This document shows, piece after piece, positions 37,094-40,071 of a stretch of 64,000 nucleotides of DNA. Below the pieces are notes generated by a model. The model was not told the DNA's origin. It worked only from the letters and a program-made list of their open reading frames with translations, and did no database searches. Positions within the stretch are counted from its first letter, which is position 1. Each line of letters begins with the position of its first letter. Both the position numbers and the translations under genes were made by a program. Source of the DNA: Terriglobia bacterium (GTDB taxonomy: Bacteria > Acidobacteriota > Terriglobia > Terriglobales > Acidobacteriaceae); contig JAIQFO010000001.1 of assembly GCA_020073215.1 (NCBI GenBank), positions 186,001 to 250,000 of the forward strand, in the 5' to 3' direction.

Positions 37094-37217
37094 AGGTCAG
37101 ATTGCAGAGGTATAAAAAATCAAAGGTCAGAGGTGAGAGGTCAGATTGCAGAGATAATAACCAGCAGTCATGTGCAGATCTTCACCTCTGCAATCTGACT
37201 TCTGACCTCTGCAATTA
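37094..37217. repeat. Dispersed 'TTGCAGAAGT' family repeat (copy 2, triplicated)
   Basis: AGGTCAGATTGCAGAGG at 37094 is followed by a second direct copy near 37133 and by the complement (CCTCTGCAATCTGACTTCTGACCTCTGCAAT) at about 37184-37214, ending on the glycosyltransferase stop. It is related to the copy at 2874-2965. Confidence 0.8.
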
Positions 37218-38192
37218 TTCCGAGATGGTGCTCTCTTCGTTCGGCGCCCGCAGGACGCGATCGACGGAGTAGGGCGCGCGCTGGGTGGGTTCGTGGTAGT
37301 GGCGGACCTGCATTTCTCCCAGCAAACCAACGGCGAGCATGTTCAGCCCCGCCAGAAGAAGGACGGCCGAGAAGATCATCAAGGGGCCGTGCTGGTACAT
37401 GATGTCGGTGCCATGCAGGAGCTTCTGCAGAATGAGCCAACTGGAGGCGGCGCAGCCCGCCAGAATGCTGAGCATCCCCACCGTGCCGAAGAAGTGTAAC
37501 GGCCGGGAAAGATACTTGAGCAGGAAGCGGATGGTGATGAGATCGAAGAAGACGCGGAAGGTGCGGGAGATGCCGTAATGCGAAACCCCGCGTTCGCGGA
37601 CGATGTTCTTGATGGGAACTTCGATGATGGTCGCGCCATACCAGGAAGCCAGCGCCGGGATGAAGCGGTGAAGCTCTCCATAAAGCGGAACCTGCCCCAG
37701 AATTTCGCGGCGGTAGGCTTTAAACGTGGTGCCAAAGTCGTGGATGTCGACGCCGCTCAACTTGGCCATCAGCCAGTTGGCGCAGCGCGAAGGAATGCGG
37801 CGCAACCAGAAATTGTCGACGCGATTCTTGCGCCAGCCGCTGACGATGTCGTAGCCCTCGGCAATTTTTTCGAGGAACAGAGGAATGTCGGCGGGATCGT
37901 GCTGCAGGTCGCCGTCCATGGCGATGATATATTCTCCGCGGGCATGGTCGAATCCGGCGGCGAGGCCGGCGGTCTGTCCAAAATTACGGCGCAGCTTGAC
38001 CACGGTCACGCGGCTGTCGACGGCGGCAATCTCACCGAGCAGCGCGAACGTGCCGTCGATGGAGCCGTCATCGACCAGCACCATCTCGAAAGTCTCGCCG
38101 CTTGCTTCCATCACGGCTTTAAGCCGCGCGTACAGGTCGGTGACGTTCTCCTGCTCGTTGTGGAGAGGAACTACGATGGAGTATTTGAGCAC
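37215..38192 (-). CDS. Family 2 glycosyltransferase, polyprenyl-phosphate sugar synthase type
   Basis: 325 residues. The N-terminal GT-A domain has VVPLHNEQENV, the nucleotide-binding VDDGSIDGT and the metal motif MDGDLQHDP; SGWRKNRVDNFWLRRIPSR follows. Two C-terminal membrane helices (about 230-260 and 265-290) match the ArnC/DPM1 group, which charges undecaprenyl phosphate with a sugar on the cytoplasmic face. It would feed a glycan or protein-glycosylation pathway; the polytopic GT-C-like protein at 8569 could be an acceptor enzyme, but that is speculative. It lies just downstream (leftward) of the stem-loop region, which could form part of its leader. Confidence 0.9.
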   Translation of the reverse strand: MLKYSIVVPLHNEQENVTDLYARLKAVMEASGETFEMVLVDDGSIDGTFALLGEIAAVDSRVTVVKLRRNFGQTAGLAAGFDHARGEYIIAMDGDLQHDPADIPLFLEKIAEGYDIVSGWRKNRVDNFWLRRIPSRCANWLMAKLSGVDIHDFGTTFKAYRREILGQVPLYGELHRFIPALASWYGATIIEVPIKNIVRERGVSHYGISRTFRVFFDLITIRFLLKYLSRPLHFFGTVGMLSILAGCAASSWLILQKLLHGTDIMYQHGPLMIFSAVLLLAGLNMLAVGLLGEMQVRHYHEPTQRAPYSVDRVLRAPNEESTISE

Positions 38193-38398
38193 AGTGTTTT
38201 TGATTATACGGCAGCGGGACGCAGCCTTCGAAGTAACTTCCGTGAGACGTTGCTTCGGCGAGCTTTCAGTGAAACGCTCAAGCGGAACGAACCGGCAAAA
38301 CTGATTCGCTGACGTTGGCGTTGTTCTCAGGTATCAGTATCAGGTCTTAGGTGTTTGCCGAGAACGAAGCACGTCGGTACTCTGCGCGCTCAAACCTT

Positions 38399-38426
38399 TA
38401 TATTTACTCTTCTATATTTACTCTTC
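38399..38426. repeat. Perfect tandem direct repeat, 2 x 14 bases
   Basis: TATATTTACTCTTC at 38399-38412 and again at 38413-38426. It is AT-rich against a GC-rich background. Confidence 0.9.
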
Positions 38427-38483
38427 GGGTATTAACCTATACGTTATCGTACCCCTACCCCCCCTTTTTTCGGTCTTTTGGAA

Positions 38484-38520
38484 TCAAAGACTTGGGAGGT
38501 GGATCCAGCTAGGTCTTTGA
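38484..38520. other. Stem-loop 1 of the structured region
   Basis: TCAAAGAC (38484-38491) pairs perfectly with GTCTTTGA (38513-38520); the loop contains TGGATCCA, itself a palindrome. Confidence 0.65.
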
Positions 38521-38555
38521 ATTTAAAGGACTTGTTGGTAAAGTATTTAAGAACC

Positions 38556-38571
38556 AACGAGTTAACTTGTT
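38556..38571 (+). promoter_or_regulatory. Near-palindrome AACGAGTTAACTTGTT before a short frame
   Basis: A 16-base sequence that is self-complementary except for one pair, with GTTAAC at its centre. It abuts the AAGGAG ribosome-binding-like site at 38572-38577 and could be an operator. Confidence 0.35.
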
Positions 38572-38585
38572 AAGGAGCGCTGAAA

Positions 38586-38618
38586 ATGGGTTTGGGGCAG
38601 TTTCGAGGGCCGTCTTGA
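38586..38618 (+). CDS. Possible 10-codon leader peptide
   Basis: AAGGAG at 38572-38577 is followed eight bases later by ATG and the frame MGLGQFRGPS, ending TGA. The coding bases overlap the left arm of stem-loop 2, so translation would unfold that hairpin. No larger downstream gene on this strand is known, so the assignment is tentative. Confidence 0.25.
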   Translation: MGLGQFRGPS

Positions 38619-38648
38619 TTGACGGATAACACCTCAGAACTGCCCCAA
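38592..38648. ncRNA. Stem-loop 2: 11-bp perfect stem with nested hairpins
   Basis: TTGGGGCAGTT (38592-38602) pairs perfectly with AACTGCCCCAA (38638-38648). Inside, GAGG/CCTC (38605-38608/38632-38635) and CCGTC/GACGG (38610-38614/38621-38625) continue the helix to a TTGATT loop. No U-tract follows, so it is not a simple terminator. This may be part of a non-coding RNA. Confidence 0.5.
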
Positions 38649-38668
38649 TCAGATCTCTATCGTTGCGC

Positions 38669-38744
38669 ACAGCGGCGCTTAAGTCAATGGATTTCGATCA
38701 GGGTGATTGTGATGAGAAAATTGACGAGGTCTCAGCGCCGCTGT
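38669..38744. ncRNA. Stem-loop 3: 11-bp perfect stem with inner stem
   Basis: ACAGCGGCGCT (38669-38679) pairs perfectly with AGCGCCGCTGT (38734-38744). The inner GTCAAT/ATTGAC (38683-38688/38720-38725) is also perfect. It begins 21 bases after stem-loop 2. Confidence 0.5.
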
Positions 38745-38767
38745 CAAATCGAATTCTTATGACTGAC

Positions 38768-38796
38768 ACGGCGCGAGCGGGAACTGCTCGCGCCGT
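38768..38796. ncRNA. Stem-loop 4: 11-bp perfect hairpin
   Basis: ACGGCGCGAGC (38768-38778), loop GGGAACT, GCTCGCGCCGT (38786-38796). It is the third consecutive hairpin with an 11-base-pair perfect stem. Confidence 0.55.
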
Positions 38797-38948
38797 CCGA
38801 CTGCGCGCTAAGAGCCCCGCCCTTCGCTTCGCGATAGGACGGGCTACCCTCGTTCTTTCCGAGTTCAAAATTTCCAGGAGGAGTTGCGTGCCGGCGCCGG
38901 AGAAGTCGGCCACCCGCCGTACTTGGTCCGCGAGCGAGAGATGTAGGG

Positions 38949-39006
38949 GTCCTTCGACTCCGCAGAAACTTCACTTCGTGAAGTTCCTGCTCCGCTCAGG
39001 ATGACA
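38949..39006. repeat. Dispersed 'TGTCATCCT' repeat (copy 3)
   Basis: GGTCCTTCGACTCCGCAGAA, then ACTTCACTTCGTGAAGTTC (a small hairpin), then GCTCAGGATGACAG. It corresponds to the right half of the element at 25659-25739, here with an inserted hairpin. Confidence 0.7.
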
Positions 39007-39177
39007 GATTGGATAGGGTCGCGGACGGCAACAATCCTTCAAGGCATCCACTTCCGCAGCAGTATCCGCAGCAGCAGCCAGAGCCTGATGTTCGTTGTGA
39101 TCAGGAAGTTTTCTTTGACATGTTCGTGACCGCTCCGGCCTGGTTCCGCGGCGTATTCGGTAACTGCGCTGCGGTCG

Positions 39178-40071
39178 TCATCCATTCACGGCGGCGGCGG
39201 CGCCGCCTTCCAAGGCTTGGTGTTCGGAGCAGGCTTTCAACCATAAACCGAGGAAGTCGAGGAGTTCGCCGGGAGGCTTCAGCCAGAACTGCGCCGCCGT
39301 CTCTCGCCAGATAGGACGAACCAGCGCGCTGATGCCAGTGCCCTGCTCGATGCGCTCCTGCATGACCAGGAACGCCGACTCATCGGTGTTGTCGTCGCCC
39401 AGATAGGCGACCGGCGTGTCGGGACCGATTTCACCGAGAAATGCGCGAACGGCATCGCCTTTGTCGGCCTGGTACGCGCGGATTTCCACGCCACCGTCGA
39501 ATTCCAGCAGGTTGAGCCCGCTGTGTTCCGCGATCGGCCGCCACCCAAGCAAGGCGCGAGCCCGCAGCTCCTCCGCCGCGTTTTGGCTCAGGCCGCGCCA
39601 GTGAACGGCGATGCTTCCGGCCTTGAATTCCGCCATATGGCGCAGTTGCTGGTAGCCGAGCCACCGGTCGGCATCGGACAAGCCTTTGAGCGTGCGCTCA
39701 TCCAGGCGCGGCATCTCCGTACTTCCGTCTGTGTTCATGCGCTGCAGCCCGTGAACTCCCCAAATTTCGGGACGGGGGTGAACGTTGAGAAGCGGGAGAA
39801 CGTCATCCGCATCGCGCCCGGAGATGACCACCACTCGCGTGCGGCCATTGCGTACGATCTCCTGCAGCAGCAGCGCGACTCCGGGATACGGGTAAGCCTG
39901 GTCGCGCCGGGTGTGGAATGGCGCCAGGGTTCCGTCGTAATCGAGCAGCAATACCGCGTGCGATGCGTGGGCAACACTTTGCAGAAACGGCGTGACTTGG
40001 GATTGCACTTCTGGCCTCAAAACGCGTTGCTCCTTCGTTCTGCCTTTTTGAACCGCTCGCTCGCCGTGCAT
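39178..40071 (-). CDS. otsB: Trehalose-6-phosphate phosphatase
   Basis: It removes phosphate from trehalose-6-phosphate, the second step of trehalose synthesis. This HAD-type phosphatase of 297 residues has its nucleophile motif DYDGT at 44-48 (LLLDYDGTLAPF), VVISGRDADD as motif II, and GDDNTDESAFL as motif IV with the metal-binding aspartates. Its first base overlaps the otsA stop (TGATG), so the two proteins are made in a fixed ratio. The N-terminal 30 residues are basic and not part of the domain. Confidence 0.93.
   Translation of the reverse strand: MHGERAVQKGRTKEQRVLRPEVQSQVTPFLQSVAHASHAVLLLDYDGTLAPFHTRRDQAYPYPGVALLLQEIVRNGRTRVVVISGRDADDVLPLLNVHPRPEIWGVHGLQRMNTDGSTEMPRLDERTLKGLSDADRWLGYQQLRHMAEFKAGSIAVHWRGLSQNAAEELRARALLGWRPIAEHSGLNLLEFDGGVEIRAYQADKGDAVRAFLGEIGPDTPVAYLGDDNTDESAFLVMQERIEQGTGISALVRPIWRETAAQFWLKPPGELLDFLGLWLKACSEHQALEGGAAAAVNG

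Follow-up and report, generated by a model that had tools for sequence, protein, structure and literature searches.

The intergenic interval between a family-2 glycosyltransferase gene (37215-38192) and a trehalose-phosphatase gene (otsB, 39178-40071), both on the minus strand of the window (the whole 64,000-nucleotide stretch of DNA analysed here), is rich in repeats and stem-loops, raising the question of whether it holds a non-coding RNA, an attenuator-like leader, or the relic of a mobile element, as proposed in turn by the first-pass annotation. The features behind these proposals are all found in the sequence, with a 2x14 repeat on the plus strand (TATATTTACTCTTC, 38399-38412 and 38413-38426), a near-palindrome (38556-38571) abutting an AAGGAG (38572-38577), a 10-codon ATG...TGA frame encoding MGLGQFRGPS on the plus strand (starting at 38586), and three perfect 11-bp stems at 38592-38602/38638-38648 (within a 17-nt pair, 88%), 38669-38679/38734-38744, and 38768-38778/38786-38796. 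The stretch was described as AT-rich, and its GC content, measured in 100-base windows, is indeed 0.40-0.43 over 38350-38599 compared with 0.50-0.70 before 38.35 kb and after 38.70 kb. The annotation described it as not a simple terminator, and the sole terminator-like site in 38150-39200 lies outside the finding at 38307-38320; the same scan found no promoter-like site. The plus-strand fold of 361 nt reaches -145.4 kcal/mol, compared with -106.9 +/- 5.8 for shuffled sequences (z -6.7), and because it beats all 100 shuffles the hairpin content of this stretch is above chance.

These features are shared with other loci, as parts of a repeat family. A repeat match, the result that the annotation itself had listed as speaking against it, was obtained, with no name found for the repeat, and its suggestion of a mobile-element relic came close, in that the stretch holds one copy of a dispersed repeat family. 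We consider it probable that the feature is one copy of a non-autonomous, mobile, intergenic DNA repeat dispersed in Terriglobia. The core of the repeat recurs at many unrelated, mostly intergenic sites, and its copy number differs strongly between species.

The window copy of the repeat spans 38413-38720 and is composed, on the plus strand, of a left-end motif, a C-tract, three related units of ~24 nt, and a stem-loop tail. Part of the left-end segment (TATATTTACTCTTCGGGTATTAACC..., 38413-38451) matches a copy upstream of the same glycosyltransferase in genome G004, with 84% identity over 38428-38533. The aligned left ends of many copies read TGTTTACTCyGAAGGTATTAACC, and the 2x14-nt tandem repeat (38399-38426) is read as a tandem duplication of this left-end motif (T-TTTACTC...). 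The core, of ~110 bp (38452-38565), starts with the C-tract (CCCCTACCCCCCC, 38452-38464) and continues with unit 1 (GGTCTTTTGGAATCAAAGACTTG, 38472-38494), which has 32 full copies in its own genome and is kept in other genera, unit 2 (GGTCTTTGAATTTAAAGGACTTG, 38512-38534), and unit 3 (GTAAAGTATTTAAGAACCAACGAGTTAA, 38538-38565). A linker follows (CTTGTTAAGGAGCGCTGAAAATGGGT, 38566-38591), the consensus of which is GTTGTCAAAGAGCGCTGAAAATGGG, making AAGGAG a rare variant found in 2 of 45 long copies. Beyond the linker lie the stem-loop tail (38592-38648), whose strings TTGGGGCAG and CTGCCCCAA are retained together, without change, by 35 of 45 long copies, and the right part of the long form, ending ...GTGATGAGAAAA (38649-38720). 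An extra 3' tail (38721-38776) is common to some long copies (L009, L012, L041, and L057), and the third hairpin, again with a perfect 11-bp stem, occupies 38768-38796.

All three hairpins thus exist as annotated, however only the first lies wholly within the conserved element. The second stem has one arm in the extra tail and pairs the element with it; this stem is not kept in L009, L012, L041, and L057, where the best pairing is 8-10 of 11, with shuffled sequences averaging 9.2 pairs and at least one of 200 reaching 11. The third hairpin has no match among the other loci compared.

Allowing for variation, the long copies of alignment A1 (45 of 56 near-full copies) run from the left-end motif through the C-tract, three units, GTTGTCAAAGAGCGCTGAAAATGGG, and TTGGGGCAG...CTGCCCCAA to an end reading GTGATGAAAAA, while alignment A2 holds 65 of 75 core copies. 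Three of 33 long copies (L016, L055, and the second L062 copy) were set aside before modelling. At L016 (1806-2108) the element is apparently interrupted by other sequence between the core and the stem-loop tail, and the long copies at L126, L127, L131, and L136, which form one clade on the tree, carry an A-rich stretch in place of the C-tract. The core is followed by the ~160-bp stem-loop tail seen in the window, by one of two other shared short tails, or by a gene encoding a helix-turn-helix (HTH) protein, with at least two shared tails besides the stem-loop tail present in the own genome.

The stretch 38350-38850 has 38 matches in its own genome, counting itself, of which six involve only a neighbouring REP-like element, and a model of the shared part identifies 32 full own-genome copies in the loci examined. 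A core profile, R1, made from 65 copies, returns at least 51 own-genome matches at E<=0.001, from the 150 candidates scored out of 626; all profile counts are lower bounds. Read in this way, six genomes of the same genus hold 85 (G004), 62 (G020), 59 (G008), 16 (G010), 7 (G022), and 0 (G015, rated 100% complete) matches, and four genomes of three other genera hold 21-28. Using blastn, matches were obtained in 16 of 23 other same-genus genomes and in 0 of 37 genomes of other genera, with the profile being the more sensitive of the two; G022, without matches by blastn, has 7 by the profile. An even draw of the class gave matches in 13 of 299 genomes at E<=1e-5 under stricter filters, 11 of the same family (own genome included) and two of another family. 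The pattern of C-tract plus unit 1 is present in at least 120 stretches in a collection of 84,980 species genomes and, among the matches listed, 80 of 80 belong to Acidobacteriota MAGs, labelled Acidobacteriaceae, Terriglobia, Terriglobales, Acidobacteria, Candidatus Sulfotelmatobacter, or Candidatus Acidiferrales. No match was found to this exact pattern in viral contigs, or to the window copy by blastn in plasmid and phage records. A literature search, with most subscription journals outside its coverage, returned no description of the present repeat, and the string CAAAGGACTTA appeared in four papers unrelated by title. Diverged cores at L155 (G272) and L158 (G169) lie in one-contig genomes, making them useful for complete-genome copy maps.

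Lineage-specific clustering of dispersed copies, by which MITEs and other non-autonomous mobile elements are recognised, is evident in a tree of all 45 copies of A1 (columns 115-436), with genome labels requiring 22 changes compared with 30.5 when shuffled (0 of 200 shuffles as low). Supported clades extend across loci, one of them holding three G001 copies and another seven G000/G004 copies; taken singly, G017, G000, and G003 are not clustered on this tree. The end branches are long (median 0.14), so that no fresh copy is caught, which counts against the mobile reading. Among the glycosyltransferase loci of 21 other genomes, compared over flanks of up to 1500 bp, some of them cut by contig ends, a copy is present only in G004, where it has the same orientation as that of the window and lies further from the glycosyltransferase, at a contig end. 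In G020, G011, and G007, which lack the element at this locus, another gene ends close to the start of the glycosyltransferase; the window retains a remnant of the 3' end of that gene at ~39.05-39.17 kb, separated by about 800 bp in which the element and other repeats lie. Only about 110 bp lie between the glycosyltransferase and otsB in G022.

The alignment beside the element is too poor to give borders in the candidate empty-site pairs L151/L206 and L067/L197. Three further results count against the mobile reading. A target-site duplication test on 18 long copies, the right ends of which are uncertain, gave a mean shared string of 4.2 nt compared with 4.1 nt for mismatched pairs. The two ends of the window copy are not linked by any inverted pair, with none seen by eye in other copies, and no transposase is consistently linked to the repeat. 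A TnpB/omega-RNA element was considered and rejected, with PF07282 having no match in the own genome and being found in 6 of 14 control genomes. None of the 32 own-genome copies overlaps a called ORF, as is also the case for 196 of 207 non-redundant copies (taken from 267 merged hits, minus duplicates and hits without a core), with the other 11 overlapping an ORF. We propose that the repeat would spread as DNA via a putative enzyme acting in trans, for which the core may serve as the recognised left end, with the tails being possible cargo or relics, and that selection would remove insertions within genes. On this view, the stem-loop would act as a hairpin in DNA or as a protein site, and not as an RNA.

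A possible, if unlikely, alternative is that the core is a cis site of benefit to the host, with a conserved DNA-binding protein occupying its three spaced units in regulation, nucleoid structure, or transcription insulation, and with its copies selected and multiplied by duplication. This would fit the unit grammar, since the C-tract and the units ending ...ACTTA are recognisable at similar spacing across genera despite differing spacers. It would also fit the behaviour of copies that lie at matching sites in several species, with the identity of the element exceeding that of both 80-bp flanks in 10 of 13 site-matched pairs, a non-independent set that shares loci (a 14th pair, L151/L206, is not counted, its second locus having no element at the site). 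This counts against simple movement and suggests constraint or gene conversion; the 80-200 bp to the left of the element, probably coding, are as alike as the element or more so in several of these pairs, and some pairs may represent separate insertions of a conserved sequence. Additionally, the left edge of the element is nearer to the upstream gene where that gene has its 3' end facing the element (median 87 bp) than where it has its start there (162 bp). Distances to gene starts are rough, as ORFs were called crudely, by length and codon-position GC.

Orientation and copy number argue against such a cis site. Among 153 copies with both neighbours called, 93 lie between co-directional genes (43 ->-> and 50 <-<-), 31 between convergent genes, and 29 between divergent genes, showing no orientation preference, and copy number ranges from 0 to 85 within one genus, with none detected in the complete-rated G015. 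A directional role at gene 3' ends, as a terminator, had been hinted at by the own-genome copies, 19 of 32 of which have the upstream gene pointing towards the element, mostly 13-113 bp off, with 9 convergent, 7 and 10 co-directional, and only 3 divergent arrangements among the 29 copies flanked by two called neighbours. This idea is not borne out by the larger set of 187 copies with an upstream neighbour called, in which the upstream gene points towards the element in 94 and away from it in 93.

The coding form of the repeat bears on the cis-site reading from both sides. At five loci in G000, G009, and G004, the core lies ~50 bp upstream of the start of the HTH gene and in the same orientation. 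All three own-genome matches of this winged-HTH gene of ~142-145 aa have the core in this position, and it is also found ahead of a close G009 homologue and a cut G004 homologue; a sixth case, a fragment at a G004 contig end, has the core further off, at about 120 bp. No core accompanies the remaining 8 of 14 matches to the HTH gene in the genus in the sequence examined, each of them more distant or partial, these being L291, L293, L294, and L297 (<=51% identity), and L292, L295, L296, and L298 (partial or weak). The dispersed unit of core and winged-HTH gene was seen at L287, L288, L289, L290, and L300, with the gene cut in L300. In the uncut L287-L290, homology starts near the left edge of the core and runs for 556-684 bp depending on the pair, indicating that the core is the common left part of the coding and non-coding forms.

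The product of this gene matches Pfam HTH_29/HTH_33, which we take to be the N-terminal HTH of IS630-type transposases. Whilst the coding form resembles such transposases in carrying an HTH gene of this type, it differs in that its ORF is ~142-145 aa long and is assigned HTH domains only by Pfam. A bolder reading, which we regard as decidedly improbable, is that the core is at once an operator array and the mobile head of an element of a new kind. Its tails would be interchangeable, with one of them coding for an HTH DNA-binding protein of the element itself, such that a family of acidobacterial genomes would carry dispersed binding sites, a mobile regulon, for proteins derived from transposase HTH domains.

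A family of structured non-coding RNA genes transcribed from the plus strand is very unlikely. The strong predicted fold of the window copy and the intact TTGGGGCAG and CTGCCCCAA of most long copies would be consistent with it, as would the 24-pair core hairpin of the window, which is on average 75% paired (0.41-0.96) in 40 long copies from other genomes, as would follow from units 1 and 2 being imperfect inverted copies. The compensatory changes that the first-pass annotation had put forward as a check are not supported, with a covariation term of 0.04 among the 45 long copies. Each of the eight predicted pairs of the main stem is the same in 43-45 of 45 copies; a single change on one side was seen, and none on both sides. 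The main stem is thus conserved through identity of sequence and shows no covariation. Of the 15 predicted pairs, 3, all outside the main stem, have one sequence each changed on both sides. Furthermore, no consensus fold was found for the core in 65 copies, and that of the long copies is weak, with the fold z of the core averaging -1.7 among 31 copies of the own genome, 11 of which fall below -2, and -0.05 among 34 copies from relatives, 4 of which do so.

The Rfam covariance search, likewise suggested as a check, placed nothing above cut-off on the element in the window region, where two chance-level hits (E 2.6 and 4.6, to a microRNA model and an lncRNA model) fall far below it. In 16 related loci, no hit at E<=1 lies over the element, with three hits all outside it. 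The Acido-1 and Acido-Lenti-1 RNAs, raised as candidates and similar to the repeat in lineage, by name only, do not appear among the hits to the window region at E<=5 or to the 16 loci of relatives at E<=1. The scan for promoter-like sites, which found none, also argues against an RNA gene.

Attenuator or leader-peptide control of a neighbouring gene, which the AAGGAG and 10-codon frame followed by hairpins had suggested, is extremely unlikely, as these features are on the plus strand and both neighbouring genes on the minus strand, the repeat copies have no orientation preference, and neither feature is conserved, with AAGGAG as rare as noted above and the ATG present in 37 of 45 long copies but opening frames of 6 to 97 codons. 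With a stem lacking covariation, cores lacking a consensus fold, and AAGGAG and frame not conserved, neither a structured RNA nor a leader peptide is supported.

Acidobacteriota rank among the major bacteria of soil, and experimental genetics in them is limited. A repeat whose grammar can be recognised, and which occupies tens of intergenic sites in each genome, has consequences for assembly and annotation, and may affect gene expression. A single copy of such a repeat can pass for a new structured RNA. The HTH-coding form offers a concrete lead to how repeats of this type move or become bound, and if a host protein binds these sites, they would constitute an unrecognised genome-wide set of binding sites.

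MITEs and enterobacterial repeats such as ERIC/RU-1 are intergenic repeats of roughly 100-300 bp without a gene for their own movement, with MITEs defined by terminal inverted repeats and target duplications. The present repeat is similarly intergenic and without its own movement gene, however it differs from MITEs in that neither terminal inverted repeats nor a target duplication were found in the copies compared. We rate it as belonging to a known kind, the dispersed bacterial intergenic repeats. It does not fit, or does not clearly fit, the definitions of GTAG/CGTC REPs, MITEs bearing terminal inverted repeats, TnpB-type elements, and Rfam RNAs.

REPs are palindromes of 20-40 bp tagged by GTAG or CGTC, according to Di Nocera et al. 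2013 (PMC3733652), and tyrosine-transposase genes flanked by inverted repeats are described there in Acidobacteria, including a repeated family in Koribacter versatilis. The present repeat resembles the REP/GTAG and RAYT/TIRYT-linked repeats of that study (PMC3733652) in being short, present in many copies, and proposed to be mobilised in trans, but its core of ~110 bp has three units and no palindrome fold shared among 65 copies. RAYTs were also rejected as its mover, with the core not flanking Y1 genes on both sides in the own genome; one of eight own-genome Y1_Tnp loci (1500-bp flanks) has a core, on one side (L076, below the Pfam cut-off).

A separate REP-like palindrome is found beside the window copy at 38805-38852 (GGGTAGCCCGTCCTATCGCGAAG... 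on the minus strand), and is of the type described in that study (PMC3733652). At L073, relatives of this element stand in inverted orientation to either side of a Y1-transposase gene, the arrangement typical of RAYTs; the two matches there, opposite in orientation, measure 43 nt (93%) and 35 nt (94%). With respect to a possible GTAG tag, the window copy of this element reads GGGTAGCCCG, and the two L073 copies read GGGTGGCCCG. Further along, 38940-39006 holds another dispersed repeat (GGTCCTTCGACTC...GCTCAGGATGACA), with matches of 91-97% in at least eight other loci, including the Y1-transposase loci L071 and L073.
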